This document shows positions 3,558 to 34,740 of a DNA stretch of 42,434 nt, one piece after another (within the stretch, counting starts at the first letter, position 1; every line of letters starts with the position of its first letter). Under the pieces are notes generated by a model. It saw only the letters and a list, made by a program, of their open reading frames with translations. It ran no database searches and was not told the origin of the DNA. Source of the stretch: Deltaproteobacteria bacterium (GTDB lineage Bacteria > Desulfobacterota > Desulfomonilia > Desulfomonilales > Desulfomonilaceae); NCBI GenBank assembly GCA_016875095.1, contig VGSG01000027.1, positions 1-42,434 of the forward strand, in the 5' to 3' direction. A program made the position numbers and the translations under genes.

Positions 3558-3729
3558 ACCATACGCTTTTCCCAAAGTCAATCGAGAAGACTATGAGTCT
3601 TCCTGAAAATGGTTTTCGTCTCGGATGTTTTCCCGCATTGGTGAGTCTGCTTGGGCCCCCGAGCACGAATGCCGGTTATCTTGATCGCCACCACCACTGG
3701 GGTTTCGGTTTCGCATGAGGAGGCGCCAT

Positions 3730-5427: not shown

Positions 5428-5452
5428 ACCTGGTCTAGCGGGGAGTGTGGAA

Positions 5453-5848
5453 ATGGGGACAGAGAAGATCAAGGTAATTGTAAGCAAGGTTGGGCTGGAC
5501 GGTCACGATCGCGGGGCCAAGGTTGTGGCCTCCTTACTCAAAGAAGGGGGCATGGAAGTGGTCTATCTAGGCATGTACCAAACCCCCGAAAGCATTATAA
5601 AGGCTGCTATCGATGAGGACGCCGATGTAATTGGGCTCAGCTATCTTTCGGGTGAGCACCTGGTGTACACGCCGAAGATCGTGGAAGAAATGAAGAAAAA
5701 TGGCATGGATGATGTGCTTCTCGTAGTAGGAGGCTCTTTCCCACCTGAGGACATCGAGGTCATGAAGCAGATGGGCGTAGATGAAGTTTTCCGTGGAGGG
5801 TCTCGTATCCCATCCATTGTGAACTATATCACCGAAAATGTGCGATGA
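5453..5848 (+). CDS. B12-binding small subunit of the acyl-CoA mutase
   Basis: A 131-residue cobalamin-binding domain that supplies the coenzyme to the large subunit encoded just upstream. It shows the base-off/His-on signature DGHDRG, with His18 as the predicted cobalt ligand, followed by a Rossmann-like fold with LSYLSGEH and VVGGSFPPED loops that normally cradle the corrin tail. Start choice: GTG 5447 lies only two bases from the GGGGAG ribosome site, whereas ATG 5453 is at a normal distance. The length is typical of separate small subunits of isobutyryl-CoA mutase type. Its stop overlaps the start of the next gene (ATGA), indicating translational coupling. Confidence 0.9.
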   Translation: MGTEKIKVIVSKVGLDGHDRGAKVVASLLKEGGMEVVYLGMYQTPESIIKAAIDEDADVIGLSYLSGEHLVYTPKIVEEMKKNGMDDVLLVVGGSFPPEDIEVMKQMGVDEVFRGGSRIPSIVNYITENVR

Positions 5849-6849: not shown

Positions 6850-6986
6850 GCAAGCCTCCCAACTCCGGCAATGCAAGAACAGACTTGACTCGTATCTATC
6901 CACAGAACTCACGCAAGGAATTGATCCCGCGGCGCTGAGAGGAATACTTAAGTTTGTTCCGATAGATTCCAAGAGAGGAGTCGGTT

Positions 6987-7784
6987 ATGAGTGGTGGCGG
7001 ACGTTTGCAGGGAAAAGTGGCCGTGATCACCGGAGCGGCCGGCGGTATCGGCCGCGCGACGGCAGCGCTCTTCTCACGTGAGGACGCGAAACTGGTCTTG
7101 GCGGATCTCGATGAAACCGGCCTGCAAGAGACCCTGGAATTGGTAAGAGAAGCGGGCGGTGAGGCTTTGAGCAAGAAGACGAATGTGGCTGTTGAGCAAG
7201 ACGTGAAAGAGCTTATCGATTTTGCGCTCAAGACATATGCCCGGGTGGACATCCTGTGCAACAATGCGGGCATTACCGGAGACCTCGCGAGCCTCGAAGG
7301 CCAGGACGCGGAAGATTGGCGCAGGGTGCTCAATGTCAATCTCCTGGGCGCGGTCTACGGAACAAAACACGTGGCTGCGCACATGCAAGAGCGGAAGTCC
7401 GGCGCGATTGTGAATACGGCGTCCGTGGCGGGAATTCGATCCGGCGCTGGAGGCAATGCTTACAGCGCCAGCAAGGCCGCCCTGATCAATTTCACTCAGA
7501 CCTCGGCTTGTGACTTGGGGGCGTACAACGTTCGGGTGAACGCGGTCTGTCCGGGCCTCATCGAGACAAACATGACCAAATCGGTCTTTGATTATGCCCG
7601 TCAAGCGGGGAAACAGGACAAATTGGGTTATCGCTGTGAATTGAGACGCTACGGACACGCGGAGGAGGTGGCTTTGGCCATCCTGTTTCTTGCCAGCGAT
7701 GAAGCCAGCTACATAACAGGCCAGGCGTTGCCTGTTGACGGAGGAAACACGGCGTCGCTCAATCTCCCCGGCATGAAGTTCTAG
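6987..7784 (+). CDS. SDR family NAD(P)-dependent dehydrogenase
   Basis: Classical short-chain dehydrogenase of 265 residues. The cofactor-binding motif TGAAGGIG is at 15-22, NNAG at 92-95, and the catalytic Ser146, Tyr159 (YSASK) and Lys163 are all present. Acidic residues after the second strand (LADLDE) favour NAD over NADP. The ribosome site GAGGAG lies 6 bases before the ATG. It is 137 bases downstream of the mutase GTPase gene on the same strand and could be co-transcribed. In this context it is a likely 3-hydroxyacyl-CoA or other alcohol dehydrogenase of the same pathway; family members such as FabG are too similar for the substrate to be read. Confidence 0.9.
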   Translation: MSGGGRLQGKVAVITGAAGGIGRATAALFSREDAKLVLADLDETGLQETLELVREAGGEALSKKTNVAVEQDVKELIDFALKTYARVDILCNNAGITGDLASLEGQDAEDWRRVLNVNLLGAVYGTKHVAAHMQERKSGAIVNTASVAGIRSGAGGNAYSASKAALINFTQTSACDLGAYNVRVNAVCPGLIETNMTKSVFDYARQAGKQDKLGYRCELRRYGHAEEVALAILFLASDEASYITGQALPVDGGNTASLNLPGMKF

Positions 7785-8095: not shown

Positions 8096-8908
8096 CTAAG
8101 CGAGCCATCGTTTGCGGCGTTTGTAGTGTTTAACGTCGCGGTAGCTTTTCTTACCGATTTCGGTCAGACCAAGGTAGAATTCCCTTACATCCTCGTTGTC
8201 GCTGATTACGGCTGCTTCGCCGTCGAGCACGACGCGGCCGTTTTCCATCACATAGGCGTATTGAGCGAAATCCAGGGCCATAGCCGCGTTTTGTTCGGCC
8301 AGGAGCACGGTGACATTCTCTTGGTCGTTCAGGCTACGAATAATGTTGAAGATCTCCTCGACCAGAAGCGGCGCCAATCCCATGGACGGCTCATCCAGGA
8401 GCATAATCTTCGGTTTCGACATGAGCGCGCGTCCAATGGCCAGCATTTGCTGCTCGCCACCTGAAATATACCCGGCCTTCGCCTGACGGCGCTGCTCCAA
8501 TCGCCGGAAGTATCGGTAAACCACGTTCAGGTCGCCTCGAACCTTCTTGTCATTCCTGGTATAAGCTCCGCAGAGGAGATTGTCTTCCACGGTGAGGTGC
8601 TCAAAGACCCGCCGGCCTTCCATCACTTGCACCACGCCTTGCTTGACAACTTGAGCAGGGTGCATCCGGTCTATGCGCATGCCCGCGAACTCAATGGTTC
8701 CCTTGGTCACTTCACCTCGTTCCGCATGAAGCAGGTTAGAGATGGCCTTGAGTGTCGTGCTCTTGCCGGCGCCGTTGGCCCCGAGCAGGGAAACGATCCC
8801 CCGCTCGGGGACCTCGAGAGAGACCCCCTTCAGCACCAGGATCACGTGCTCGTAGATGACTTCGATATTGTTCACCCTGAGAAGAGGGGGCTTGGCGCCT
8901 TGAGTCAT
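8096..8908 (-). CDS. livF: Branched-chain-type ABC transporter ATPase LivF
   Basis: ATP-binding subunit of a HAAT (branched-chain amino acid type) importer on the inner face of the cytoplasmic membrane. Of 270 residues, Walker A is GANGAGKST near 43-51, the signature is SGGEQQ, and Walker B is IMLLDEPSMGLAP, as in LivF proteins. The last ~20 residues form a Lys/Arg-rich tail (KSYRDVKHYKRRKRW) beyond the usual LivF end, seen mainly in importers linked to aromatic or fatty acid clusters. The ribosome site GGGAGAGGA precedes the start. It is the last gene of a minus-strand set (livG, livH, livM, livK, livF) that follows the acyl-CoA ligase gene, so the cargo may be a carboxylic acid, not an amino acid. 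Confidence 0.92.
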   Translation of the reverse strand: MTQGAKPPLLRVNNIEVIYEHVILVLKGVSLEVPERGIVSLLGANGAGKSTTLKAISNLLHAERGEVTKGTIEFAGMRIDRMHPAQVVKQGVVQVMEGRRVFEHLTVEDNLLCGAYTRNDKKVRGDLNVVYRYFRRLEQRRQAKAGYISGGEQQMLAIGRALMSKPKIMLLDEPSMGLAPLLVEEIFNIIRSLNDQENVTVLLAEQNAAMALDFAQYAYVMENGRVVLDGEAAVISDNEDVREFYLGLTEIGKKSYRDVKHYKRRKRWLA

Positions 8909-8974
8909 GTGGCATTCCTCTCCCTTGTTCGTCGCATGGTCGGCTGCGCGTTCATTCTCTAAGGTGAGTGGGTT

Positions 8975-10291
8975 CTACTTTTTCTCACCCTTCTTGGCAG
9001 CATAGTCTTCCGCGGAGCGCTTCACTTCAGCCTGCACCACGTCTCTCATGGGAGCGATCCAGTCGGAAATTGGCTTCCACTTCGCGCCGTCCCACTGCTG
9101 GAACCTGATCCAGCCACCGCCCTCATGATCGGTGGGGCTGGTCTTTAGCGGGGGCATGAAGCCTTCGGCGCCCAGCTCCTTGATCCGCTTTTCGTCGATG
9201 TTGAGGTTTTCGAGAGCCCATTTCATTTGCTCCCCGTTGATGGGTTTGGCGCCAAACTTCTTGTACGCAGTGCGAAGCGCTTCCGCAGTGATGATGCCGT
9301 GGATCACCCCTCGGTTGTAATATACCGTCCCTACCCGAGTAACCGGGAGGTTGCCTTTTCCTTTCATGTAGATGTTTTCCAGGATCTCCTGAATGATTGG
9401 GAATTCTTGGCCGACACCATGAAAGTTCGTGGTGATGTAATCTTTCGCCGCGGGTCCGGCAGGCACCACGTCCTCTTCAGAGCCGCACCACCAGACACCG
9501 ATAATGCGGTCCCGGGAGAATCCCACCCGCACGGCTTCTTTCAGCGGAACCGTGCAGCTAATGCCCCAGTTCCGGTTAATAACCCAGTCCGCCTTAAAGC
9601 GTCGCTTTATGTCCAGCCACTGAGCGCTTTGCTCCAGCCCGGGAGCGGGCACCGGGAAAAGGCCCAGCTCAAAACCGTATTTCTCGGCCAACGTTTTCAA
9701 AATGGGGATGGTCTCCTGGCCGTAAGCCACGTCAATGTAGAGCAGCGCGATCTTCTTTCCTTTCAGCTTGTCCAGACCCCCTTCCTTGGAGGCGATGTAA
9801 TTGATTTTCCCCGTAACCTGAGACCAGTACGTGGTCACAAGTGGAAAGGTGTAGGGAAAGATCTCTCCGCCGAACTGCGCATCCGCTCGACCGTACCCGA
9901 TGCTGGTCAGCGGGATCTTGTCCGCGGTGGCCCGTTCCATCAAGGCGTAGGTGATCCCGGTGCTTATGGGATGGTAAACGATCGCGCCGCCGTGCTCCTT
10001 CTTTGTGCGCTCGTAGCATTCCACCCCGCGCGGCGGTGAATATGCGGTCTCGCATTCTTCCCACTTTAACTTGATTCCGTCGATACCGCCCTTGAGGTTG
10101 AGCAGGTCGAAGTAGTCCTCCATACCGCCGCAGATGCCGCTACCGCCCGGAGCGTACGGTCCGGTGCGGTAGCACAGCAGAGGCAGCCACTGCTCCTTGT
10201 CCTGCGCCGCTGACAGCGCAGGCATGAGGAGCAGGCAGGCCATTGCAAGCGAGATCACTAGGGCACATCTCAGTCTCATCGCTTCGAACAT
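8975..10291 (-). CDS. Periplasmic substrate-binding protein of the Liv-type importer
   Basis: A 438-residue type I periplasmic binding protein (LivK/AmiC-like fold) that would capture the imported substrate. The first ~30 residues form a signal peptide (positive start, hydrophobic LVISLAMACLLLMPALSA, likely cleavage after ALSAAQ). GGAGGGAG lies at normal distance before the ATG at 10289-10291, supporting this start over the in-frame Met five codons later. The sequence lacks the short typical LivK form and matches the longer relatives found beside acyl-CoA ligases in aromatic or aliphatic acid clusters. It lies between livM and livF, with a GC-rich hairpin upstream that may adjust its expression. 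The ligand cannot be predicted. Confidence 0.88.
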   Translation of the reverse strand: MFEAMRLRCALVISLAMACLLLMPALSAAQDKEQWLPLLCYRTGPYAPGGSGICGGMEDYFDLLNLKGGIDGIKLKWEECETAYSPPRGVECYERTKKEHGGAIVYHPISTGITYALMERATADKIPLTSIGYGRADAQFGGEIFPYTFPLVTTYWSQVTGKINYIASKEGGLDKLKGKKIALLYIDVAYGQETIPILKTLAEKYGFELGLFPVPAPGLEQSAQWLDIKRRFKADWVINRNWGISCTVPLKEAVRVGFSRDRIIGVWWCGSEEDVVPAGPAAKDYITTNFHGVGQEFPIIQEILENIYMKGKGNLPVTRVGTVYYNRGVIHGIITAEALRTAYKKFGAKPINGEQMKWALENLNIDEKRIKELGAEGFMPPLKTSPTDHEGGGWIRFQQWDGAKWKPISDWIAPMRDVVQAEVKRSAEDYAAKKGEKK

Positions 10292-10343
10292 AGATTCTCC
10301 CTCCTTCGGTGAAGACGCGAAAAACCGCGTTGGGACTCTTTTC

Positions 10344-10365
10344 GCCCGGGACCGGCCTCCCGGGC
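10344..10365. other. Intercistronic GC-rich hairpin between livM and livK
   Basis: GCCCGGGA (10344-10351) and TCCCGGGC (10358-10365) form a perfect 8-bp stem with a 6-base loop, in the 107-base gap between the permease gene and the binding-protein gene. Such hairpins often protect mRNA ends so that the binding protein is made in excess; that role here is inferred. Confidence 0.4.
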
Positions 10366-10398
10366 TCGGGACCGGGACGCTCTCTCATATGGTTTCCC

Positions 10399-11478
10399 TT
10401 AATAGGGGAACGGCCATAATCGGAGGTAATCCTTGATCGTATTCCACAGGCGGGCCAACCCGAACGGTTCCACCGCCAGGAAGAAGATGATCAGGGCTCC
10501 AAAGATCATGTTCTCCACATTTGCTATCAGATCGAGCGTAAAGACCTTGCTCAGATCCACAATACGGTGATTGACGAAACTGATGGTCAGATTGATGAAA
10601 ATCGGCAGCAGAACTATAAAGCCCGCGCCAAGGAACGATCCCAATACACTGCCCATGCCGCCGATAATCACCATTCCCAGGATCTGAAATGAAACGAGCA
10701 AGTGGAATTCCTCTATATTGGCCGAGCCGTAGTAGAAGGCCACGAGGAGGCCGCCAGCCACCCCTGCATAAAAGGAGCTCACCGCGAAAGCGAGCATCTT
10801 ATACTTGAACTGGGATATGCCGATGATCTCTGAGGCCACGTCCATGTCTCGGATCGACATCCAGGCGCGGCCTATACGGCTCCGGACGACGTTCTTAGCA
10901 AAAAACGCCATGATCACCACAAAAATGAGGGCAAATTGGTACTTCTCCGCGGCCGTGTCGATTTGCCACCCCATGAATTCAAGCGCCCTTATGTCGATGG
11001 TGGAGTAAACGCCGCCGCTGATCCACTTGACGTGCGTGATCACCCATTCGATGATCAACTGGGCCGCCAAGGTGGAGACGGCCAAATAGAAGCCTTTGAT
11101 CCTCAAAGAGGGTAAGCCGAAGACAGAACCCACCGCGGCCGTAATGAGCCCGGATCCAAGTAACGCCACAGGTATGGGCACGTCGTACCGGTTGTACATG
11201 ACAACAGTGGCGTAAGCTCCCACAGCCATGAATCCCGCATGACCCAATGAAAGCTGCCCCGCGTATCCCGTTAAGATATTGAGCCCCAGAGCGGCCAGCG
11301 AGAAAACGAGAAAGGGTATGAAAATACTGACCAGCATGTAGTGACTGGACACGAGGGGGATGACGAAGAAAGCCAGGACCATAACTACAACGAAGCCCGC
11401 CTTATCCAAAGGGATCGGGAAGAGCTCCATGTCCTTAGCGTACGTAGTCTTCAATACACCGGTTTCTCGATAGAACAT
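10399..11478 (-). CDS. livM: Branched-chain-type ABC transporter permease LivM
   Basis: Inner-membrane permease, 359 residues with about nine hydrophobic segments and the LivM signature TGYAGQLSLGHAGFMAVGAY near residue 75. It also has the cytoplasmic loop with R-S-R-I-G-R-A-W-M-S-I-R-D that contacts the ATPase (EAA-like). An N-terminal extension of about 20 polar residues precedes the first membrane segment. The start ATG at 11476-11478 lies three bases after the livH stop with a GAGAG ribosome site, consistent with coupled translation in the operon. It pairs with LivH to form the channel. The substrate is unknown, and the adjacent acyl-CoA ligase suggests an organic acid. Confidence 0.92.
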   Translation of the reverse strand: MFYRETGVLKTTYAKDMELFPIPLDKAGFVVVMVLAFFVIPLVSSHYMLVSIFIPFLVFSLAALGLNILTGYAGQLSLGHAGFMAVGAYATVVMYNRYDVPIPVALLGSGLITAAVGSVFGLPSLRIKGFYLAVSTLAAQLIIEWVITHVKWISGGVYSTIDIRALEFMGWQIDTAAEKYQFALIFVVIMAFFAKNVVRSRIGRAWMSIRDMDVASEIIGISQFKYKMLAFAVSSFYAGVAGGLLVAFYYGSANIEEFHLLVSFQILGMVIIGGMGSVLGSFLGAGFIVLLPIFINLTISFVNHRIVDLSKVFTLDLIANVENMIFGALIIFFLAVEPFGLARLWNTIKDYLRLWPFPY

Positions 11479-11481
11479 GGC

Positions 11482-12372
11482 TCAGACTCTCTCGATGATC
11501 TCTCGGCCGAAAAGCCCATAAGGACGCACCGCAAGGACAATCAGCGCCAGAAGATACGGGAAGAAATTCTTTATGCCGCCGCCCACGGCCGGGCCGATAA
11601 GGCCTTCGGCCAGGTTCTCCGCGGCCCCGATGATGAGCCCGCCCAATATCGCGCCGGGGATGGAGTCAATCCCTCCTATGATAAGGACCGGCAGGGCCTT
11701 GAGCGCCAAGAGCGCGAGACTCGCCTGCACACCCACTCTGCTCCCCCACAACGCTCCCGCCACGATCGCGACGATCCCGGCTATGGCCCAGGTGATGCCC
11801 CACGCTTTTCGGAGGGGAATACCCACGGCGAGAGCGGCCTCATGATCGTCGGAAACCGCTCGAAGAGCGCGACCGGTCTTGGTCTTCTGGAAAAACCAGA
11901 CGAGCGCTATCAGGAGAATGCCCGCCACCACCGCGCCCAAGATGTCCATATTGCTGATGAACATCCCGGCAACATCGTAAGTCTGGTCAGCGAGGCCCAG
12001 CTCCAGCCCTCGGGGTTGCGTTCCCCAGATTCCTTGAGCCAGACCTTGAAGAAAGAACGCCACGCCGATAGTGGCCATGAACAAAACCAGCGGCGGTCGT
12101 GCCACAAGCGGCTTGAGCACAATCCGCTCGACGGCCATGGCCAGGATCAACATGATCGCCAACACGACGATCAAGCTGATCCAAAGCGGAATCTTGACCA
12201 CAAACGAGGCCAAAGCCAAGGCCGCAAGAAACGTCATGTCCCCCTGGGCAAAGTTGAACACCCCTGAAGCCTTGTAGATGAGCACAAAGCCCAGCGCCAC
12301 CAGGGAATACATGAGACCCACCAGCAAGCCGCTGATGGTAAGCTCCAAGGCAAAGAGCAGGGTCTCGGACAT
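11482..12372 (-). CDS. livH: Branched-chain-type ABC transporter permease LivH
   Basis: Second permease subunit, 296 residues, with hydrophobic segments throughout, the early motif GLMYSLVALGFVLIYKASGVFNFAQGD that is diagnostic of LivH, and the conserved RAVSDDHEAALAVGI cytoplasmic loop. ATG 12372 has AGGAG nine bases upstream; the TTG one codon earlier is a less likely start. It is separated from livG by 13 bases and from livM by 3, so the permease genes are surely co-transcribed. All residues expected for a working subunit appear present. Confidence 0.92.
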   Translation of the reverse strand: MSETLLFALELTISGLLVGLMYSLVALGFVLIYKASGVFNFAQGDMTFLAALALASFVVKIPLWISLIVVLAIMLILAMAVERIVLKPLVARPPLVLFMATIGVAFFLQGLAQGIWGTQPRGLELGLADQTYDVAGMFISNMDILGAVVAGILLIALVWFFQKTKTGRALRAVSDDHEAALAVGIPLRKAWGITWAIAGIVAIVAGALWGSRVGVQASLALLALKALPVLIIGGIDSIPGAILGGLIIGAAENLAEGLIGPAVGGGIKNFFPYLLALIVLAVRPYGLFGREIIERV

Positions 12373-12385
12373 CAATAATACTCCT

Positions 12386-13174
12386 TCACTTCTTTCCGTG
12401 CGCGCCCAAATAGGCCTTGATCACTTCCGGATTCGAACGAATTTCCTCCGGAGCGCCTTCCGCGATCTTTCGACCGTAATCCAAGACAAGGATTCGGTCG
12501 GAAATGTCCATGACGACGCCCATGTCGTGTTCAATCAAGCAAATGGTTGTGCCGCGCTCTTCGTTGGCATCCAAGATGAACCTGGCTATGTCTTCCTTCT
12601 CCTCCAGATTCATGCCGGCCATGGGCTCGTCCAACAGCAGGAGCTTGGGTTCGGCCGCCAGCGCGCGTCCCAGCTCGACACGCTTCTGTAAACCATAAGG
12701 AAGCATTCCCGCCGGCGCTTTCCGTATTGCCTCGATTTCCAAGAAATCGATCACGTCCTCCACAACTTTCCGGTGCGCGATCTCCTCCTTCTGTCCCCAA
12801 CCCCAATAAACGCCTGAGGCAAACAGCCCCGAACGCATTTGGAGGTGTCTGCCCACCATGAGGTTGTCAAGGGTGGTCATACCTTTGAAGAGGGCCACGT
12901 TCTGAAAGGTTCTCGCAATCCCCAGCGCGGCCACGTGATGGGGAGGCATAAAGGTGCGTTCCTTGCCCTCAAAGAACACCTCGCCGGGTGAAGGATGATA
13001 GACGCCGCTGATTACATTGATCAGGGTGGTTTTGCCCGCGCCGTTGGGTCCGATGATAGCGAAAATCTCGCCGGGGTAGATCTCCAAACTAACGCCCAGC
13101 AGGGCCTGGAGCGCGCCGAAGCTGACATAAACGTTGTTCACCTTGAGCAATGGGCGACCGACGCCGTCTGGCAT
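12386..13174 (-). CDS. livG: Branched-chain-type ABC transporter ATPase LivG
   Basis: First ATPase subunit of the importer, 262 residues from ATG 13172-13174, which has AAGGAG five bases upstream; a longer frame starting at 13252 lacks such a site. Walker A is GPNGAGKTT, the Q-loop region is ARTFQNVALF, and Walker B is LLLLDEPMAGMN followed by the LivG hallmark IARFILDANEERG and an H-loop IEHDMG. The usual LSGGQ is replaced by LPYGLQKRVELG, which is the normal LivG version. It opens the importer gene set, 395 bases after the ligase gene, with REP-like repeats in that gap, so the importer may also have its own promoter. Confidence 0.92.
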   Translation of the reverse strand: MPDGVGRPLLKVNNVYVSFGALQALLGVSLEIYPGEIFAIIGPNGAGKTTLINVISGVYHPSPGEVFFEGKERTFMPPHHVAALGIARTFQNVALFKGMTTLDNLMVGRHLQMRSGLFASGVYWGWGQKEEIAHRKVVEDVIDFLEIEAIRKAPAGMLPYGLQKRVELGRALAAEPKLLLLDEPMAGMNLEEKEDIARFILDANEERGTTICLIEHDMGVVMDISDRILVLDYGRKIAEGAPEEIRSNPEVIKAYLGAHGKK

Positions 13175-13305
13175 ACTGACTCCTTGTGTTAGATCCTGGG
13201 TTATAAACTCGCTTTCAAGCAGTGGATATGCGCTAACCAAGCACCCGAACAAATCCCCCTGTATCCCCGTAGGCGCTAAAATAGAATTGGCCCCTGGTGC
13301 TGGAC

Positions 13306-13569: not shown

Positions 13570-15537
13570 TCAGGCCACCGCGGCTTGCTCCGGTTTGACT
13601 ATCTCCAGGTCACGGATAGCCAAGTTTGCGCGAATGGTTGCCGTGCGTCCGTCTTCGTAGGTGATGACCGCTTCCACGTCTACCCGTTCCTGGTCCGAAT
13701 AAAGGGAATTGATGAGCTTTTCGTACTTTTGAGCGATAAAGCCCCGTCTGAGCTTACGTGTCCGCGTGATTTCCGCATCATCCGGGTCCAGCTCTTTGTG
13801 CAGGATGAGAAAGCGCTTGATCTGGGCTCCTCGGAGTTGTTCTTCCTGGAAAAGTGAAAGATTGACCTTCTTTACTTCTTCGTGGATCAAATCATAAACT
13901 TCCGGCTTCTGGCTCAGATCGGTGTACGAGGTGTAACCGATGCTCCTTCTTTCGGCCCAGTTGCCTACGGTCTCCGCGTCGATGTTGATCATGGCCGCCA
14001 CAAAATCCTTCCCTTGACCCAGCGTGACGGCTTCTTTGATGTATTGACTGAATTTCAGCTTGTTCTCGATATATTGCGGCGCGAAGATCGTCCCCGAAGC
14101 CATAGTGCTCACGTCCTTAGCCCGATCGATGATGATCAGATGGCCGTCCTTGTCGATTATTCCCGCGTCCCCGGTATAAAGCCAGCCCTCCTTCAAAGCG
14201 CCCGTCGTGGCTTCCGGGTTCTTGTAGTAACCGCGAAAGACCCCGGGGCTCTTTATAAGCACTTCCCCGTGATCACCGATGCGGATCTCCACACCTACAC
14301 AGGGCTTGCCCACTGTTTCCAGCTTCACATCGTCGTCGGGCTGGTACGTGCACATGGCCGACGTTTCGGTAAGCCCGTAAATTTGCTTAAGATTTACGCC
14401 GATAGCTCGGTAGAAACGGAAGACTTCCGGCCCGATAGCGGCGCCCGCGGTGTAGGCGTACCTTATTTCGGCAAGGCCCAGATTGTCCCTCAGAGGGCTT
14501 GTGATCAGAGTTCGACCGAGAGCCCTGAGCAGCTTCAAGCGAAATGGCGCAGACTTCTTATCGCTTTCCAGCTTGGCGCACTTGACCGCCACCTCCATAA
14601 AATACTCGTACGCTTTCCGGAGCGGCCACCACGCGTCATCCATCTTCACTTGGACCGAGGAGAGTATGTTCTCCCAGATTCTGGGCGGACAAATCAGCAG
14701 CGTCGGCCCGATTTCCCTCATGTCCCTCATCACGGTGGAAGGGCCTTCCGGGCAGTTGACCGTAAAGCCGGTGTTCAGAAACATGGCGATGGATAAGACT
14801 CCGTCGCCGATCCAGGCCATCGGGAGATAAGCCATGACCTGGTCCGTGGGACGATGGTCCTCCATTGCGGAGAGCGCTCTCGCGTTCGTTATCAGATTTG
14901 AATGCGTCAGGACCACCCCCTTGGGATTGCCCGTGGTCCCGGACGTGTAGGCGATCAGAGCGATATCGTCAGGTCGGACCTTTTCTATCTCTTGCTCCAC
15001 ATAGCCCGGATGGAGTTTGTCGAACTCGCGACCCATCTCCTGAACTTGGACAAACGCCTTGATATTGGTGTGATCGTAGTGGCGCATACCTTTCGGGTCG
15101 TCGTATATGATGGTCTCGATGCTGGCGACGCTGTCTTTGAGCGCCAACATCTTATCAACCTGTTCCTGGTCCTCAGCCACGATGAAGCGTACGGCGGAAT
15201 GCTCGATAATGTATTGGAGTTCCTTTTCGATCGCATCCTGGTATAGCGGCACAGGCACGCCGCCCAGACACATCGCGGCCACCTCAGCCCAGTAAAGCTG
15301 AGGTCGGTTGTCACCGATGACCCCCAGAGCGTCCCCGCGCTTGAAGCCCAACACGGCCAAACCCAGGGCAAAGAGGCGAACTTGAGTCCAATAGTCTTCC
15401 CAGGTGTAGGACTGCCAGATGCCGAAGTCCTTCTCTCGGATGGCTACGCGATCTCTTTCTTTGCGGATTTGTCTGCTCAGCAAAAGCTTGGGCAGAGTAT
15501 TGAGCCTGTCGTCATGCCCCTCGTATTCTGCGCTCAC
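13570..15537 (-). CDS. AMP-forming acyl-CoA ligase (FAA1-type)
   Basis: Activates a carboxylic acid to its CoA thioester with ATP, releasing AMP and PPi. The ~655-residue adenylate-forming enzyme has the P-loop YTSGTTGNPKG (about 197-207), the YGLTET motif, YTGDAG and DRAKD hinge motifs, and a C-terminal lid. The lid lacks the usual PRTRKGK-type ending but keeps ITRTRKLRR. Start: GTG at 15535-15537 is preceded by AGGGGA at good distance, while ATG 15565-15567 has no ribosome site; either would make a working protein. Its large-insert architecture is that of long-chain-type ligases often encoded beside Liv-type importers in acid-degradation clusters, exactly the context here. The substrate is unknown. 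Confidence 0.9.
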   Translation of the reverse strand: MSAEYEGHDDRLNTLPKLLLSRQIRKERDRVAIREKDFGIWQSYTWEDYWTQVRLFALGLAVLGFKRGDALGVIGDNRPQLYWAEVAAMCLGGVPVPLYQDAIEKELQYIIEHSAVRFIVAEDQEQVDKMLALKDSVASIETIIYDDPKGMRHYDHTNIKAFVQVQEMGREFDKLHPGYVEQEIEKVRPDDIALIAYTSGTTGNPKGVVLTHSNLITNARALSAMEDHRPTDQVMAYLPMAWIGDGVLSIAMFLNTGFTVNCPEGPSTVMRDMREIGPTLLICPPRIWENILSSVQVKMDDAWWPLRKAYEYFMEVAVKCAKLESDKKSAPFRLKLLRALGRTLITSPLRDNLGLAEIRYAYTAGAAIGPEVFRFYRAIGVNLKQIYGLTETSAMCTYQPDDDVKLETVGKPCVGVEIRIGDHGEVLIKSPGVFRGYYKNPEATTGALKEGWLYTGDAGIIDKDGHLIIIDRAKDVSTMASGTIFAPQYIENKLKFSQYIKEAVTLGQGKDFVAAMINIDAETVGNWAERRSIGYTSYTDLSQKPEVYDLIHEEVKKVNLSLFQEEQLRGAQIKRFLILHKELDPDDAEITRTRKLRRGFIAQKYEKLINSLYSDQERVDVEAVITYEDGRTATIRANLAIRDLEIVKPEQAAVA

Positions 15538-16431
15538 TCGCACTCCCCTCGCACGACCTTGGTTCATACCAGCGTAACATTACAAAGGAAGCCGGTCAGT
15601 AGCGGCAGCTCGCACGGTCTGCCCCATTGACAAGAAACTCACGCATTTCCGGAACAGCTTCAGCCTCGCGCCAGTGCCGGCGCTTCCTCTGTAACCATAG
15701 ACCCGTATGAAGAACCTTGTTGTTCTGCCGCGTCCGAGCTGCGACCTTCGCCTTCCGTAATATGCTCAAGAAATGAGAACCGGAGGGATTCATAAGGGAA
15801 ACGGGAGTGTTGTCGAACTATGAAAAGAAGGGGAGCCAGAAACCTTCGTAGCGAACCCAACGGACCGTCCAGTAGACTTTGACACATCTCGCGTCTCATC
15901 GGGCGGACTCACGCCGAACTTAAGGCCCCAGGCTTTTTGAGAAATCAGTCTGCCGTGGTTGGTTAGGTGAAAAAAAGCCTCTATCTCATATCACGGATAA
16001 ATCCATCAGGCAACTCTTTTGAGCATGACCGCGTAACCCTTCAGTTACTCGGGGAAAGACTGTCATCACTTCGTCTCCCGAATCGAGTCCGGGGTCCTCG
16101 CAATAACATGTGAGACGCGCGTCCTGCCCGCACATAATTGAATGGCTATGTCGCCGCGTGATTTGTCTGGTCTTTGCGCGTCGGACTATGGTACAAACGC
16201 TCAGAATGGAGTCTCTGCTTGGAATCACTGGGTGAATTCCGGCGAGAAGCGAGATTTCCGCGCTTGGGCTCCATCCAAACCCTGCGTCGAAGACAGTCGC
16301 CAACCAATATCCCGGTGAATTCGTAGGCATGATTACCCAAGTAGTTCCGCCGACTTCGCGCGCTCAACGCGCCTGCTCACCCGCGCGTGGGTAGTCCGGC
16401 GGTTTGCGCGCAATCCCAGGAGTCTGAACTG
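15538..16431. other. Large divergent intergenic region, no gene seen
   Basis: About 890 bases between the divergent ligase and acyl-CoA dehydrogenase genes. Short open frames occur on both strands, but none has a ribosome site plus recognisable family features. Near the right end, CCGCCGACT (about 16349) and AGTCCGGCGG (about 16392) could pair imperfectly in the dehydrogenase leader. It presumably carries promoters for both directions. Confidence 0.4.
15592..15601. promoter_or_regulatory. Operator half-site like the one before the mutase operon
   Basis: CCGGTCAGTA is identical to ten consecutive bases of the operator candidate at 3544-3557 and lies about 55-65 bases upstream of the ligase start codon. 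The left arm is not palindromic here. It may let the same TetR control the ligase-importer genes, but a ten-base match could be chance. Confidence 0.3.
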
Positions 16432-17598
16432 ATGAATTTCGACCTCAGCGACGAGCATCGCATGATACGAGATACGGCAAGGAAGTTCGCTGACGAAGTC
16501 ATTGCCCCTCGGGCGGAGGAGATGGAGCGCACGGGCGAATATCCTTACGATATCTTTGCTCAGATGGCCGAACTGGGGATGATGGGGCTTCCTTACCCTG
16601 AAGAATACGGCGGCAGCGGCGGTGACTGGGTAGGGACCATGCTGTGCATAGAAGAGATCGCCAGGGGTGACATCACGGTGGCTGCGCTGTTGGAAGTTAC
16701 CACGGGAATTGCAGCCCAGGAGATTTTCGCGTTCGGGACCGAAGAGCAGAAGCGAACCTGGCTCGTGCCGTTGATCGAAGGCAAAGAGATCGGCGCGTTT
16801 GGTCTGACTGAGCCCGACTCCGGTTCCGACGCGGCCTCGCTCAAGACCACCGCGGTCTTGGACGGCGACGAGTGGGTCCTCAACGGCGCTAAACAGTTCA
16901 TAACTAACATAGGTCTTGATAATGCCACAATCCTGCTTGCCGCGGCCAAGGTCAAGACAGGGAGAGGGGATGTTATCTCCACATTCATAATCCCCAAGAC
17001 GGCAAAAGGGTTCAAACTCGGCAGACCGTATCGTAAGTTGTCATGGCACGCGTCGGCCACCAGCGAAGTCATTTTGGAAGACTGCCGTATCCCTCGGGAG
17101 AACATCCTGGGAGATCCGAATCGAGGCTTTGCTCAGCATCTGGCGGTGCTTGAGACCGGCAGAATTGGAATAGCCGCTATGAGTGTGGGTTTGGCTCAGG
17201 CCTGCTTCGACCATGCGCTACGGTATGCGCAAGAGCGGACTCAGTTCGGCCAACCGGTCTTTAATTTCCAAGCCGTCCAATTCAAGTTGGCTGACATGGC
17301 AGTGGCCATTGAGCTTGCACGGAATGAGTACGTCAAGGCTGCATGGCTGAAGGACCAGGGTCGGCCTCACACGTTCGAGACCACGGTTGCTAAGCTCTAC
17401 GCTTCGGAAATGGTTGAAAAAGTCGCAAGCGACGCGTTTCAGATTCACGGCGGTTATGGATTCATGGAGGAATACGCGGTGTCTCGGTATTATGCCAGCG
17501 CCAAAGTCTTGCAGATAGTGGATGGCACGTCGGAAGTGCAGCGCATGATTCTCGGACGAATGCTTGGATCGCGCTCGGACTCCCGGGCCTGGGTGTAG
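16432..17598 (+). CDS. Acyl-CoA dehydrogenase with Asp in place of the catalytic Glu
   Basis: FAD-dependent acyl-CoA dehydrogenase, 388 residues, standard three-domain fold: helical N-terminus, beta middle with GAFGLTEPDSGSD and NGAKQFITN, and helical C-terminus with RTQFGQPVFNFQAVQFKLADM and HGGYGFMEEYAVSRYYA. The start ATG 16432 has AGGAG nine bases upstream and begins MNFDLSDEHRM, as expected for the family. The usual YEGTSE motif reads VDGTSEVQ, so the base normally provided by Glu is Asp364. Asp variants are known among alicyclic acyl-CoA dehydrogenases (cyclohexane carboxyl-CoA type), but the substrate here is uncertain. It is followed after 173 bases by the dehydratase-like gene. Electrons probably go to the EtfAB encoded nearby. 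Confidence 0.9.
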   Translation: MNFDLSDEHRMIRDTARKFADEVIAPRAEEMERTGEYPYDIFAQMAELGMMGLPYPEEYGGSGGDWVGTMLCIEEIARGDITVAALLEVTTGIAAQEIFAFGTEEQKRTWLVPLIEGKEIGAFGLTEPDSGSDAASLKTTAVLDGDEWVLNGAKQFITNIGLDNATILLAAAKVKTGRGDVISTFIIPKTAKGFKLGRPYRKLSWHASATSEVILEDCRIPRENILGDPNRGFAQHLAVLETGRIGIAAMSVGLAQACFDHALRYAQERTQFGQPVFNFQAVQFKLADMAVAIELARNEYVKAAWLKDQGRPHTFETTVAKLYASEMVEKVASDAFQIHGGYGFMEEYAVSRYYASAKVLQIVDGTSEVQRMILGRMLGSRSDSRAWV

Positions 17599-17771
17599 AG
17601 TAATTCTCGGCGTGCGGGCAGTCGCTCGCCAGCTCGCCCAACCATAATGCTGGCTCCCGCCTGTCGACCTAGGCGAAACGATTGACTGTACTCGATGCTT
17701 TTGGCACGATGTAAACGCACTTCCCCATCGCAAATCTCGCGTTGAAGCCCCTTAACCCACGGAGGAGAATC

Positions 17772-19229
17772 ATGGCCCTGAGAACGAGAGACCAGTATCT
17801 GTCAGCCCTGAAGCAGATGAGGCCAAACATCCACAAGTTCGGCGAGGTCATCGAGGACGTCACCACACACCCTGTCACAAGACGTGTGGTAGAAAGCCAC
17901 GCCCGAGGGATCGACGCTGCTCACGACCCAAAATTGGCTGACATATTCAGTACGAAATCGTCCCTGACCGGCGAGGTTATCCATCGCAATTCCTCGTTGA
18001 TGACTAGCCCGGAAGAAATGATCTACAACTCCAAGTTCAAACGTAAGATGTACCACCTTACCGGTTCTTGTACCGGCGGCCTTTGCGTGGGTTGGAACGG
18101 CCTTAACGTGATGTGGTCGGTGACCAGTGAAGTGGATGCGGCTTTGGGGACCGATTACCACGCTCGTCTCAAGGAATGGGGCCTGGGATTTCAGAAGAAG
18201 GGTTTGATCGTATGCGGCGCCCTGACTGATGCCAAAGGGAACCGTAAGCTGAAACCTCACCAGCAGGCGGATCTGGACCATAACGTGCGCATTGTCGAGC
18301 GTCGACCGGACGGAATCGTCATCCGGGGCGCAAAACATATGATCTGCGGTGTTGCGGCCGCGGACGAAATATTTGTCTTGCCCGGGAGCGGCTACGGGGA
18401 GGCGGACAAAGACTTTGCGTTGGTGTGCGTGGTGCCGAAGGATATCGAAGGGCTCACCATTGTCGAGGCTAGACGCCCCAGCGACTCCCGCGAATTGGAA
18501 CAAGGTTTCGATATTCCCACCGAAACCGGCATTACTCAGGCCTATCTCCTGTTCCAGGATGTGTTCGTGCCCAACGAGCGCGTGTTTCTTGCGGGTGAGT
18601 TTCAGTACACCGCATCCATCCTCACTCGATTTACTGCCACCTATCGAGCTTGTATCGGAGCCTGTGTCGCGGGTCAAGGCGACGTGATGGTTGGGGCGGC
18701 CGCGTTGATCGCGCGAGCAAACGGGCTGAGCGCGAAGGCCTTCAGGGACAAGCTTACGCATATGGAATTAAACAACGAGACCACGTTCAGCATGGGTGTG
18801 GGAGCGATCGCGCTTGGTAAGATGCACCCGTCCGGAGTTTGGTTGGCCGATTCTCTCACCGGGCACGCGAACAAAATTCTGGTAGCCACCCTGCCGTATG
18901 AGACAAAAAGACTCTGCCAGGAGGTTGGAGGAGGCATCGTGGAAACCGGCTGCATGCCTTCATATGCCGATTTCACGAGCCCGGATTACGGTCATCTGAT
19001 CCAAAAATATCTGAAGGCAGGGGCGGGCTCGGCTGAAACCAGGGCTCGTGTGGCTCGCCTGATTGAATGGCTGACCATCGGCGCGGGTGTTCCGGGATGC
19101 ATGCACGGCGGCGGTTCGCCTGACGGAGCGCGCATGGTGGTTTTTGGAGCTTCACCGCTGGAAGAATACGCAGGCTATGCCCACAGCCTAGCCGGTATCC
19201 AGGAGGACCTGCCGGAGCCGGCCAAATAA
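17772..19229 (+). CDS. 4-hydroxybutyryl-CoA dehydratase/HpaB-family flavoprotein, atypical
   Basis: A 485-residue member of the HpaB-4-hydroxybutyryl-CoA dehydratase family (FAD fold related to acyl-CoA dehydrogenases). Start: GGAGGAG five bases before ATG 17772. In the Clostridium dehydratase AbfD the [4Fe-4S] ligands are Cys99, Cys103, His292 and Cys299, with Tyr296 and Lys300 in the active site. Here Cys100 and Cys105 are spaced CX4C, not CX3C; Cys298 (GAC) aligns with Cys299; but the His position is Tyr291, Tyr296 is Ile295 and Lys300 is Val299. An extra Cys294 is present. The protein is therefore either a dehydratase/isomerase with a remodelled cluster site or a member with another reaction. 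HpaB-type oxygenation is less likely in an anaerobic acyl-CoA cluster. It ends 10 bases from convergent etfA. Confidence 0.85.
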   Translation: MALRTRDQYLSALKQMRPNIHKFGEVIEDVTTHPVTRRVVESHARGIDAAHDPKLADIFSTKSSLTGEVIHRNSSLMTSPEEMIYNSKFKRKMYHLTGSCTGGLCVGWNGLNVMWSVTSEVDAALGTDYHARLKEWGLGFQKKGLIVCGALTDAKGNRKLKPHQQADLDHNVRIVERRPDGIVIRGAKHMICGVAAADEIFVLPGSGYGEADKDFALVCVVPKDIEGLTIVEARRPSDSRELEQGFDIPTETGITQAYLLFQDVFVPNERVFLAGEFQYTASILTRFTATYRACIGACVAGQGDVMVGAAALIARANGLSAKAFRDKLTHMELNNETTFSMGVGAIALGKMHPSGVWLADSLTGHANKILVATLPYETKRLCQEVGGGIVETGCMPSYADFTSPDYGHLIQKYLKAGAGSAETRARVARLIEWLTIGAGVPGCMHGGGSPDGARMVVFGASPLEEYAGYAHSLAGIQEDLPEPAK

Positions 19230-19239
19230 GGCTCATTGC

Positions 19240-20250
19240 CTATCCCGGCTCCTGTTGAGAGTATTGTTTTATGGCTTCTACCAAAGGAGGGACGATCTCT
19301 TTGAGGTCACCGACCAGCCCCACGTGACAGTGCTCGAATATCGCCGCTTTGGGATCGGAGTTAATGGCCACGGATAGTTCCGAGCTTTTCACTCCTACCA
19401 GGTGATGCATATGTCCTGAGATCCCCAGTCCTATGTATAGCCTGGGACGCACTGTCCGACCGCTCTGTCCGATCATCTGCTTTTCTTCGGCCCAGCCCTC
19501 GTCCACTGGAGGACGGGTCGCGCCTACAGCGCCGTTCAGCGCGGCCGCGAGCTCTTCGACACGCGTCCAATCCGCCTTGCTCCCGACCCCCCACCCACCG
19601 GCTACCACAACCTCAGCCGTCTCCAGTCCGCTCTTGGGAGCTTCTTCTCTCTTCGTCTCCACGACTCGATAGCCCAGGTCCTCCGGTTGAAGCTGAGGAT
19701 TGAGCGAAACCATTCTCCCGCGCGCTCGGCCAGGCTCAGGAACCGGAAAGACTCCGGGCAGCACTGTCGCTACCTGGGGCCGAGTCTTGGGGCAGCTTAT
19801 GCGCGCCATAACATTTCCTCCCCAGCCGGGGACCAGAGAGAGAAGCTGACCGTCGGGCGTGAGGTCAAGATCGATGCAGTGCGCTGATAGGCCCGTGCGG
19901 AGGCGTGCCGCCAGCCTAGGGGCAAAATCCGTGCCCATAGCCGTGGCCCCGAGGAGGAGCGCCTGTGGCTCGTATTGCCGGATAGCTCCCTCAACGGCCT
20001 TGACATAGGCCTGGTTGCAATAGTGCTCCAGAAGGGCATCGTCCGCCACAAGCGCCTCATCCACTCCGAAGGACAAGACCATTTCCGCCAACGCGTCCAG
20101 CTCGTGGCCTACCAGCACCGCGGCCACTTTCCACTGAAGAGGTTCGGCCAGCGATCGAGCCTTCCCCAGCAACTCCAGGCCGACTTCAGCCACGACATGC
20201 CGGCGCTGCTCGACGAACACCCATATCTTGCTTTCAACCTGGTCGGACAC
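19240..20250 (-). CDS. etfA: Electron transfer flavoprotein alpha subunit
   Basis: FAD-carrying subunit of ETF, 336 residues, accepting electrons from the acyl-CoA dehydrogenases. The C-terminal FAD domain shows GQSGRTVRPRLYIGLGISGHMHHLVG followed by AINSDPKAAIFE, the standard fingerprint. The N-terminal half resembles EtfB-like folds (KIWVFVEQ). The start is GTG with a GAGGTGA ribosome site ten bases after the etfB stop. EtfA is the last gene of a minus-strand unit with tetR, acyl-CoA dehydrogenase and etfB. Residues needed for FAD binding look intact; nothing suggests an electron-bifurcating form, but that needs a structure-based comparison. Confidence 0.93.
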   Translation of the reverse strand: MSDQVESKIWVFVEQRRHVVAEVGLELLGKARSLAEPLQWKVAAVLVGHELDALAEMVLSFGVDEALVADDALLEHYCNQAYVKAVEGAIRQYEPQALLLGATAMGTDFAPRLAARLRTGLSAHCIDLDLTPDGQLLSLVPGWGGNVMARISCPKTRPQVATVLPGVFPVPEPGRARGRMVSLNPQLQPEDLGYRVVETKREEAPKSGLETAEVVVAGGWGVGSKADWTRVEELAAALNGAVGATRPPVDEGWAEEKQMIGQSGRTVRPRLYIGLGISGHMHHLVGVKSSELSVAINSDPKAAIFEHCHVGLVGDLKEIVPPLVEAIKQYSQQEPG

Positions 20251-20259
20251 AATATCACC

Positions 20260-21054
20260 TCAGCAGAATCCTAGACGATGCAGCCGATCGGCAAGTTTGG
20301 CGGCCTGTTCTTTCGGATCGCCGGTAATCATTTCGGCCATGCCCTTCCTCTCAGGCGCGAACAGGTCGGCCATTTGAGTCGGCGACCCGGCCAGACCCGC
20401 CCACGGTTCGCTCAAGGTCACATCGTTTGCGGACCAGACCTCAATCGGTTTTTGTTCGGCTTCCAAGATGTTCATCAGAGTCACATATCTTGGCGTATTG
20501 ATCGTCTTAACCACCGAAAGGACCATTGGGGGTTCGATCTCAACCAGCGTGTAACCATGCTCGATCTGAGACCGCGCCAGCCAAGGTTTTCCGGGCGAAA
20601 CCTCCAGTCCGCTCACGTGCATCACGTTGGGCGTCCCCAGAAACTCGGCCAACTGAGCGCTCACCTGCGCAGTGCCGCCGTCAATGGTTTCGTCCCCGCA
20701 CAGGATCAGGTCAAACTCACCTAATCGCTCTATGCCCACAGACAGCACGTAGGCCGTGCCGAGTGTGTCCGAACCGGCAAAGACGCGATCGGACAGGAGC
20801 ACTGCCCGATCCGCGCCCATGGCCAGCGCCTCCTTGAGAACAGGCTGAGAGTCCTCAGGGGCCATGCTGACGACCAGGACCTCCCCTCCTTCTTGTTCTC
20901 TCAGTGTCAAGGCTGCTTCCAGCGCGTGCCGATCCAGGGGATTGATCGTGCCGGGGATGCCTTTGCGCACCAGAGTCCTGGTTTTGGGGTCGAGTTGGAG
21001 TCGATTCCAGTGCTTGGGATCGGGAACCGGTTTTACGCAAACTATGATCCGCAT
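20260..21054 (-). CDS. etfB: Electron transfer flavoprotein beta subunit
   Basis: AMP-binding subunit of ETF, 264 residues from ATG 21052-21054, giving the family-typical start MRIIVCVKPVPDP; a GTG three codons upstream is the alternative. It has the motif LILCGDETIDGGTAQVSAQLAEFLG, which in ETFs lies at the AMP (or second FAD) site; the DGGTAQV form is close to the DGDTAQV of classical ETFs. The Leu anchor used to dock on acyl-CoA dehydrogenases (the loop after NTPRYV, with TLMNILEA) is present. It sits directly upstream of etfA and 83 bases downstream of an acyl-CoA dehydrogenase gene, supporting a dedicated electron chain. Confidence 0.93.
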   Translation of the reverse strand: MRIIVCVKPVPDPKHWNRLQLDPKTRTLVRKGIPGTINPLDRHALEAALTLREQEGGEVLVVSMAPEDSQPVLKEALAMGADRAVLLSDRVFAGSDTLGTAYVLSVGIERLGEFDLILCGDETIDGGTAQVSAQLAEFLGTPNVMHVSGLEVSPGKPWLARSQIEHGYTLVEIEPPMVLSVVKTINTPRYVTLMNILEAEQKPIEVWSANDVTLSEPWAGLAGSPTQMADLFAPERKGMAEMITGDPKEQAAKLADRLHRLGFC

Positions 21055-21080
21055 GATCTTCACCGGTTTTTCATGAGTGC

Positions 21081-21136: not shown

Positions 21137-22282
21137 TCATAAGCCGAACATGGATAGGGCCTGGCGGAACATTACCAGCTTGGCGATCTCCGCAGTTCCT
21201 CCGGCCGGAATGGTCACCACCGCGTCGCGTAGCAAGCGCTGGACTGCGTACTCGTGCATGATCCCGTAACTCCCGTGTATTTCGATGGCTTTACGCGCCG
21301 ACCTTGCAGCGGCTTCGCAAGCGAACTGCTTGGCTAGAGCCGACTCGGCCGCACAATTGATCTTCTGATCTATCATCCAGCCCACACGGTAGGTCAGCAA
21401 CCGTGAGATCTCCAAGTCGGCATAAATATCCGCGATGTGCCACTGTATCGCCTGCAACTTGCTAATCGACTTGCCATAAAGAGTTCGCTCGCCCGCAAAC
21501 TTAACCGCTTGCTCCAAGACCCCATTGAGTATTCCCAGAGCTACAGCGGCCATTCCCGGGCGGCCGCACTGAACAATGTCCTGGATGGCGGTGGTCATGC
21601 CGTCACCCTCGTTACCGAGGAGATTCTCCTTGGGAACCTCGCAGTTATTAAACGCCAGCTCGCCGGTATTGGCGCCGCGCAGACCGACTTTGTTCTCTTT
21701 TCGCCCAGCCTTGGCCCCGGGAAAGTCATTTTCCACAATAAACGCGGAGAGACCTTTGCCGCCTTCGCCGGTCCTGGCAATCACCACCCACGTGTCGGCA
21801 TGGTGCGAATTTGTGATAAAACACTTGCGGCCGTTCAGGATGTATTTGTCCCCATCCAGCTTTGCCGTTGTCTGCATTCCGCCGACATCCGATCCACCTG
21901 AAGGCTCGGTCACCGCCACCACTCCCATGGTCTCGCCTTTGCACAAAGGCGGGAGATACTTCTTCTTCTGTTCCTCATTGCCCCACGTGCTCAGGGCGTA
22001 TGTGCACATGTGGTGCACCTGAATAGCCATCGGAATCGCAGGACAGACACGCCCCAGCTCTTCTAAAACGACTATCCGAGCCAACGCGCCCATACCGGCG
22101 CCGCCGTATTCCGGGGCAGTGATCACTCCCAGGATGCCCATCTGACCCATGCCCTTTAGGAGTTCCACCGGAAACTCTCCCGTCTCCTCCATGGCTTCCA
22201 TATAGGGAGGTATCTCTTTTTCCGCATAATCCCGCACGGTCTTCCTCAGCAGCTCTTCCCGGTCAGAAAATTTGAATTCCAT
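21137..22282 (-). CDS. Acyl-CoA dehydrogenase lacking the usual catalytic Glu
   Basis: 381 residues of standard acyl-CoA dehydrogenase fold: MGVVAVTEPSGGSDVGG and NGRKCFITNSHH in the middle domain, GERTLYGKSISKLQAIQWHIADI and HGSYGIMHEYAVQRLLRDA in the last. Start ATG 22280-22282 has GGGGA upstream. The catalytic Glu of the YEGT motif is replaced: the site reads IPAGGTAEI with Gly361. At the other known base position (the helix used by isovaleryl- and long-chain enzymes) the sequence is CGRPG, again without Glu. The base must lie elsewhere or the reaction differs from simple dehydrogenation. It lies between tetR and etfBA in one operon, so transfer of electrons to ETF is still expected. Confidence 0.88.
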   Translation of the reverse strand: MEFKFSDREELLRKTVRDYAEKEIPPYMEAMEETGEFPVELLKGMGQMGILGVITAPEYGGAGMGALARIVVLEELGRVCPAIPMAIQVHHMCTYALSTWGNEEQKKKYLPPLCKGETMGVVAVTEPSGGSDVGGMQTTAKLDGDKYILNGRKCFITNSHHADTWVVIARTGEGGKGLSAFIVENDFPGAKAGRKENKVGLRGANTGELAFNNCEVPKENLLGNEGDGMTTAIQDIVQCGRPGMAAVALGILNGVLEQAVKFAGERTLYGKSISKLQAIQWHIADIYADLEISRLLTYRVGWMIDQKINCAAESALAKQFACEAAARSARKAIEIHGSYGIMHEYAVQRLLRDAVVTIPAGGTAEIAKLVMFRQALSMFGL

Positions 22283-22350: not shown

Positions 22351-22935
22351 TTATGTTGTCAGGCTGTCAAGATACGCAGTCAGCGAGGCAATGCATTTGT
22401 CCAGTGTCTTGCCGGACTTGTCGATGCCGTAGAGAACCGACGCGCCCAACATGGCCGCAAACAGCATCCGACTCACCGCGTCCGTGTCCACCGGTTCGTT
22501 CAATCGACCGGAAGCCTTGGCTTCATCCAAGAAGCGCTTAATCATGGCCAGGAATCTGTAAAATCCCTCGCTGATCTCTCCGGCGAAGTCAGGACGCTGG
22601 TCATCCAGCTCCACCGACAATGTCACGAAAACGCAACCGCCCGGGATGTTCTCCTCGTCTTTCAGATATTGGTCCGCGTAATGCTCCAGAAGCTTCTTCA
22701 CTCTTGTGATGGGATCGTCAATCCGGTCCAAACCCTCAAGGACCTTTTGCCGCCATATCCTGCGAGCCTGGCTTAGCACCGCGACGAACAGCTCGTCCTT
22801 GCTGCGGAAATGATTGTACAGTCCGCCTTTGGAGGAGTTGGCGCGCTCCAGGATGTCCTCGATGGAGGTGTTGAGGTATCCCTTGAGGGAGAAAAGCTTA
22901 AGAGACTCGTGGATGATTTTGTCTCTGAGGTGCAT
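22351..22935 (-). CDS. TetR/AcrR family transcriptional regulator
   Basis: A 194-residue repressor; helix-turn-helix at about residues 22-44 (NTSIEDILERANSSKGGLYN), followed by a ligand domain with YADQYL and IPGGCVFVTLSVELDDQRPDFAGE, a pattern of the AcuR/NemR-like C-terminal families in which the Cys can sense electrophiles. Start ATG 22933-22935 was chosen because the longer frame would run through the 22-bp palindrome just upstream. It is the first gene of the tetR, acyl-CoA dehydrogenase, etfB, etfA set, 68 bases before the dehydrogenase, and most likely represses this set and itself. Confidence 0.87.
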   Translation of the reverse strand: MHLRDKIIHESLKLFSLKGYLNTSIEDILERANSSKGGLYNHFRSKDELFVAVLSQARRIWRQKVLEGLDRIDDPITRVKKLLEHYADQYLKDEENIPGGCVFVTLSVELDDQRPDFAGEISEGFYRFLAMIKRFLDEAKASGRLNEPVDTDAVSRMLFAAMLGASVLYGIDKSGKTLDKCIASLTAYLDSLTT

Positions 22936-22953
22936 GAGCTTGGTTTCCCGGAA

Positions 22954-22975
22954 TAAGACCGACCGGTCGGTCTTA
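22954..22975. promoter_or_regulatory. Perfect 22-bp palindrome, TetR operator
   Basis: A perfect inverted repeat with core GACCGACCGGTCGGTC, flanked by TAA/TTA, ends 19 bases upstream of the tetR start codon. TetR-family operators of this ACCGACCGGTCGGT type are well known. The position within the leader strongly suggests autoregulation of the whole minus-strand operon. Confidence 0.8.
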
Positions 22976-23101
22976 CAGCTCATATAACCCCAGCTCCTTC
23001 GGACTGTCAAGATTTATTGGAGACCCAAGATTAGAGCAAGTGTCAAAAATAATGTGCGATTGCCGCTTGGGCTTTGGTAGGCGCACGGCCTCCGCGCCGG
23101 C

Positions 23102-34061: not shown

Positions 34062-34088
34062 CGTTCTCCTCCTCCTTGAGCCGGTGGT

Positions 34089-34547: not shown

Positions 34548-34605
34548 GTTGTGGTCCTCCTTCTTGACAAGAAGTTATTCTCCGAAATTACGGAACCGTC
34601 GGCGT

Positions 34606-34672: not shown

Positions 34673-34703
34673 TTCATCAGATCTTATGATGCCTCGAAAC
34701 GCG

Positions 34704-34733: not shown

Positions 34734-34740
34734 TGTTTCC

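Follow-up and report, generated by a model that had tools for sequence, protein, structure and literature searches.

What does a protein with the fold of 4-hydroxybutyryl-CoA dehydratase (AbfD) do once the residues that define that enzyme are gone? The question is raised by an open reading frame at 17772-19229 (+) of the 42,434-nucleotide stretch of desulfobacterial DNA analyzed here (the window), whose product we call AbfDX. AbfD is the textbook case of radical dehydration by a His-ligated [4Fe-4S] cluster together with a flavin, and the annotation of both carbon-fixation and fermentation pathways relies on its family.

The frame encodes 485 residues from an ATG start, 5' of which a ribosome-binding site, GGAGGAG (17761-17767, +), can be read from the sequence. 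The protein consists of the Pfam domains HpaB_N (PF11794, 240.7 bits) and HpaB C-terminal (PF03241, 138.3 bits), for which the gathering cut-offs are 35 and 25. Its closest solved relatives by phmmer are 1U8V (AbfD; 291 bits, E 8e-86) and 6VJR (285 bits, E 7e-84), with alignments covering residues 3-476/484, whereas HpaB enzymes reach 91 bits at most. The AbfD-like identity first assigned to the protein is thus borne out. The HpaB 4-hydroxyphenylacetate 3-monooxygenases (TIGR02309, 2YYG) have the same Pfam domains and fold, but they lack cluster cysteines, their reaction is O2-dependent, and AbfDX scores far lower against them, falling under both HpaB equivalog cut-offs (109.1 bits for TIGR02309, where 480.2 are required). 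It resembles AbfD in being homologous over its whole length (E about 1e-85), in three Cys positions, in its acyl-CoA gene context and in the FAD motif TDxKGxR, in which T152, D153, G156 and R158 are common to both groups at at least 95%. With this family motif kept, AbfDX probably binds FAD. The genome of the window holds three more AbfD-family genes, all with His292.

The differences from AbfD lie in the cluster ligands and the active site. The register to 1U8V is the same in the phmmer alignment and in a MAFFT alignment of 84 sequences, and the letters compared for 1U8V and 6VJR come from the phmmer output. We take C99, C103, H292 and C299 to be the AbfD cluster ligands, and Tyr296, Lys300, Glu257 and Glu455 to belong to its active site. 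Three of the ligands are kept: C100 and C105 (18069-18086, +) match C99 and C103 in all 39 clade members that have the segment, one inserted residue turning CX3C into CX4C, and C298 (18663-18665, +) matches C299 in 41 of 41. The AbfD ligand set as such is nevertheless not kept, for the His292 position is occupied by Y291 (18642-18644, +), and all alignments give Tyr there (40/41) or, once, Glu. The active-site set is absent altogether, with Tyr296 replaced by I295 (18654-18656, +; Ile in 40/41), Lys300 by V299 (18666-18668, +; 41/41) and Glu257 by Q256, and with a four-residue stretch containing Glu455 deleted. Outside the clade, by comparison, H292 is found in 42 of 42 family members, Y296 in 39 and K300 in 40. 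The exchange of His292, Tyr296 and Lys300 for Tyr, Ile and Val, the CX4C pair and the retained Cys299 position, all pointed out by the sequence-only reading, therefore hold in both alignments.

Four further changes are seen. C192 (18345-18347, +) stands at AbfD T190 and is Ala in 12 of 40 members; H365 (18864-18866, +) stands at Asn367 and is His in 40 of 41, the deepest member having Asn; and C443 (19098-19100, +), beside the deleted E455 stretch, stands at S456 and is Thr in 6 of 41, all six of which also carry A192. Finally, a clade-specific insertion of two residues, G393-C394, forms the motif E391-T392-G393-C394 (18942-18953, +), with C394 in 41 of 41 as a candidate fourth cluster ligand. 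Judged by its defining residues, AbfDX is thus outside 4-hydroxybutyryl-CoA dehydratase, though of AbfD fold and family, and because the dehydratase residues are lost, '4-hydroxybutyryl-CoA dehydratase' is an unsafe name for it.

These features define a subfamily. Searches of contigs and whole genomes found 41 members with the signature C100-x4-C105, Y/E291, C298, V299 and ETGC394, which the window protein carries in full. They come from the window's phylum, from Bacillota genomes and from metagenome-assembled genomes (MAGs) labeled Deltaproteobacteria or Syntrophaceae, and their occurrence is scattered (in the window's phylum, about 18 of 395 genomes). Forty full or near-full members, the window protein among them, sit on one branch of the tree (SH-aLRT 100; stem of 0.86 changes per column), although the exact sister group is unsure, because this long stem adjoins two further branches of great length. 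Median identity is 63% within the clade and 37% to non-members. The deepest member, L103, has Glu 291, Met 295 and Asn 365, yet all four cysteines. Comparison of the window gene with L047 gives a dN/dS of about 0.04, which together with the invariant signature rules out a pseudogene or decay, and AbfDX is a conserved subfamily under purifying selection, beyond chance. No relative was found on the viral contigs searched and no description of the subfamily in the open-access literature searched; the paper on the benzene 'Magic' cluster concerns another family.

How the cluster would be held is suggested by the pattern of cysteines. With conservation set at 97% or more, the 42 ordinary family members have 71 columns with any Cys, of which only C99, C103 and C299 are conserved, plus His292; the 41 AbfDX members have 51 such columns and conserve only C100, C105, C298 and C394. 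Twelve members have Ala instead of C192 and six have Thr instead of C443, so neither can be an obligatory new ligand. Two candidate replacement histidines, H352 and H365, are each kept in 40 of 41, weaker than C394; H365 is a possible ligand, as is the oxygen of Y291 or E291. An AlphaFold2 model built from nine sequences has a mean pLDDT of 60.9 and is weak at 203-275, 389-396 (under 50) and 433-485. The simplest reading of the site is that Cys394 stands in place of His292, and we predict from the alignments a [4Fe-4S] site that is complete but ligated in another way, by cysteines only. The sequence-only reading had offered an incomplete cluster, a differently ligated one or a flavin-only enzyme. 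Because four cysteines are retained, the first and last are unsupported; the second agrees with the sequences, in which the three AbfD cysteines are constant, C394 is universal and the His ligand is gone. Four intact ligands are therefore not found in their AbfD form, but may be present in a four-Cys form.

In the window, AbfDX lies between two acyl-CoA dehydrogenase (ACDH) genes. ACDH1 (16387-17598, +; likely ATG at 16432) is directly upstream on the same strand and has Asp at the usual catalytic Glu (VDGT). Downstream, on the opposite strand, are EtfA (19240-20250, -), EtfB (20260-21063, -), ACDH2 (21137-22282, -), which is the ACDH conserved alongside EtfBA and AbfDX, and a TetR-type regulator (22351-23010, -) that L032 and L005 also have at their ACDH-EtfB-EtfA-AbfDX operon. 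EtfA is closest in NCBIfam to AcrA, the electron-transfer subunit of acryloyl-CoA reductase, and EtfB to NF040731 (electron transfer flavoprotein subunit beta) with AcrB second, all below cut-off. On the other side, an AMP-forming, FadD-like acyl-CoA ligase (13570-15567, -) also adjoins the operon in L032, where the LIV-type ABC transporter (8096-13252, -; LivF, binding protein, LivM, LivH and LivG, named by homology and inspection) is found as well.

This neighborhood recurs in both Desulfobacterota and Bacillota. Counted by hand on a map of 41 AbfDX and 12 ordinary AbfD loci, EtfB and EtfA are present at 19 of 41 AbfDX loci versus 0 of 12, and an ACDH at 19 of 41 versus 1 of 12; a PaaK-like ligase occurs at 11 of the 41 and any CoA ligase or CoA-transferase at 20. 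About half of the AbfDX loci are without ACDH or Etf, which contig ends explain in some cases. The usual order is ACDH-EtfB-EtfA-AbfDX(-PaaK) in Desulfobacterota and PaaK-AbfDX-ACDH-EtfB-EtfA in Bacillota, and genes for a VorB-type 2-oxoacid oxidoreductase lie just upstream in two Bacillota genomes. In L008 and L010 a CoA-transferase precedes AbfDX, which is followed by an AcrC-like ACDH with EtfBA. Group f21 has a carboxyltransferase, a CaiB-type CoA-transferase, an aldehyde ferredoxin oxidoreductase and a molybdopterin oxidoreductase, while L035 and L036 have cysteine synthase, an O-acetylhomoserine sulfhydrylase-like gene (by inspection) and a PaaK-like ligase. As the f21 and L035/L036 settings differ, the pathway may vary between lineages. 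Sulfur-assimilation genes are also among the neighbors of L016 and L017.

The partner dehydrogenase is itself unusual. In 12 ACDHs that accompany EtfBA and AbfDX, the catalytic Glu of YEGT is Gly or Ala (xGGT/AGT). The window protein at 21137-22282, with AGGT, and the ACDHs of L032, L005, L086-L090, L113, L115, L117 and L118 are of this kind; YEGT is intact in those of L008, L010, L111 and L124. At what we take to be the base position of isovaleryl-CoA dehydrogenase, in a presumed register to that enzyme, the AbfDX-linked ACDH appears to have Gly. The base of isovaleryl-CoA dehydrogenase is at an alternative position (PMC12369846), and few ACDH groups are without the catalytic Glu (PMC11659651). 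With the usual Glu missing, the reaction of the Etf-linked ACDH is likewise uncertain. AcrC is the best NCBIfam match for these proteins, below cut-off.

Acrylate-type reductive pathways combine propionate CoA-transferase, 2-hydroxyacyl-CoA dehydratase and AcrC-AcrBA, and fld clusters are built similarly. The AbfDX loci resemble both in joining CoA activation, a radical-type enzyme and ACDH-EtfBA, with AcrC and AcrA as the nearest models for ACDH and EtfA, but an AbfD-family protein fills the dehydratase slot and no score reaches the AcrABC cut-offs. Going by its neighbors, AbfDX most likely has a CoA thioester as its substrate, in an anaerobic pathway: a CoA ligase or CoA-transferase would activate an acid, AbfDX would form or rearrange an enoyl-type acyl-CoA by flavin/FeS-assisted elimination or isomerization without net redox change, and the EtfBA-coupled ACDH would carry out the redox step. 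AbfDX would bind FAD, and its C100, C105, C298 and C394, the last replacing His292, would hold a [4Fe-4S] cluster. That AbfDX is such an FAD/[4Fe-4S] enzyme, with a four-Cys cluster, which carries out a redox-neutral elimination or isomerization of an acyl-CoA as part of an anaerobic pathway not yet described, has in our view an even chance of being right. Homology, signature, clade and recurring neighborhood are read from the sequences, whereas the cofactors, the part of C394 as ligand, and the reaction with its direction we infer. That the reaction is redox-neutral and makes an enoyl-CoA, which we favor because AbfDX sits, like a dehydratase, between CoA activation and the AcrC-like ACDH-EtfBA, comes just short of an even chance. 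More tentative, if quite conceivable, is the wider proposal of a new kind of acyl-CoA enzyme with FAD and an all-cysteinyl [4Fe-4S] cluster, whose chemistry would differ from that of AbfD and which would work with a 'base-less' ACDH and EtfBA in an unrecognized anaerobic pathway of acid degradation common to Desulfobacterota and Bacillota.

AbfDX might instead be an oxidoreductase, its all-Cys cluster relaying one electron between FAD and EtfBA or ferredoxin as an acyl-CoA is oxidized or reduced. We consider this unlikely but take it seriously, because AbfDX directly adjoins EtfA at many loci (ACDH-EtfB-EtfA-AbfDX); a four-Cys cluster, being coordinatively saturated, would also suit electron transfer or a structural role better than Lewis-acid catalysis, and the co-encoded ACDH has lost its catalytic Glu. 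However, the same operons already hold an Etf-coupled dehydrogenase, the EtfBA pair is not nearby at 22 of 41 loci, and the relatives of known chemistry perform redox-neutral reactions.

A second alternative concerns the cluster rather than the chemistry. Tyr-ligated [4Fe-4S] clusters are rare, which counts against a cluster held by three cysteines with the Y291 phenolate, or the substrate, at a fourth iron that still acts as Lewis acid, C394 having some other role. Both residues seen at the His292 position are possible oxygen ligands, and the C394 loop is about 100 residues away in sequence, but an invariant fourth Cys occurs in the very clade that lost the His, and we regard such a three-Cys cluster as distinctly unlikely.

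A flavin-only, HpaB-like enzyme without a cluster would fit the Pfam domains common to HpaB and one aberrant member, L057 (in L090; AbfDX copy at 5771-7027, -), in which an in-frame deletion of 68 residues removes CX4C and which has A192 and T443 in place of the other two cysteines. HpaB proteins, however, score far lower and are without any Cys ligand, and the four cysteines are otherwise invariant, CX4C being missing in L057/L090 alone. L057 retains C298 and C394 within an intact operon, its sisters L128 and L129 keep CX4C, and the deletion, seen in one MAG, may have arisen recently or through faulty assembly; a flavin-only enzyme is very improbable.

According to a passage in PMC13101534, the mechanism proposed for AbfD involves a flavin semiquinone and a ketyl-type radical. 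In its known form this would not apply to AbfDX, where the base/ligand His292 and other residues are gone, and with His292, Tyr296, Lys300, Glu257 and Glu455 replaced or lost, radical dehydration of 4-hydroxybutyryl-CoA as in AbfD should not occur. Retention of AbfD-type dehydratase/isomerase activity is hardly credible, despite the common fold family, the three Cys ligands and the FAD motif, given that these five residues are replaced throughout the clade and nearly invariant outside it and that several AbfDX genomes also encode canonical AbfD.

Our preferred reading, an all-cysteine cluster in an acyl-CoA enzyme other than the dehydratase, has two implications. A clade in which the His ligand is seemingly swapped for a Cys elsewhere, with the remaining catalytic residues gone, tells the requirements of fold and cofactors apart from those of dehydration, and the operon around it hints at a CoA-ester pathway not yet described. 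In addition, '4-hydroxybutyryl-CoA dehydratase' annotations in the genomes of anaerobes can be wrong.

Other divergent groups occur within the AbfD family. One, comprising L004 (G000:C116) and the second genes of L014 and L048, keeps His292 and the Cys ligands, has Tyr296 replaced by Cys and T190 by Ser, and is without E455; it adjoins AbfDX in two f21 genomes. In another, L021 (G067:C88) and L041 (G060:C239), Lys300 is Ser, T190 is Gly and E455 is Val, and VorAB lies beside the L041 copy. Genomes G060, G132 and G122 have ten AbfD-family matches each, a large family expansion. A TGA-containing paralogue (G000:C31) is not a selenoprotein, its TGA being a normal stop before an in-frame downstream ACDH.

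Elsewhere in the window, genes at 3715-6849 (+) encode the large and small subunits of an acyl-CoA mutase and a MeaB-like GTPase. The closest solved structure to the mutase is 2-hydroxyisobutyryl-CoA mutase (380 bits; MCM 315), although in the alignment its substrate-determining positions look different. Three consecutive small Hsp20-like heat-shock genes lie at 33660-35211 (-), as judged by inspection.
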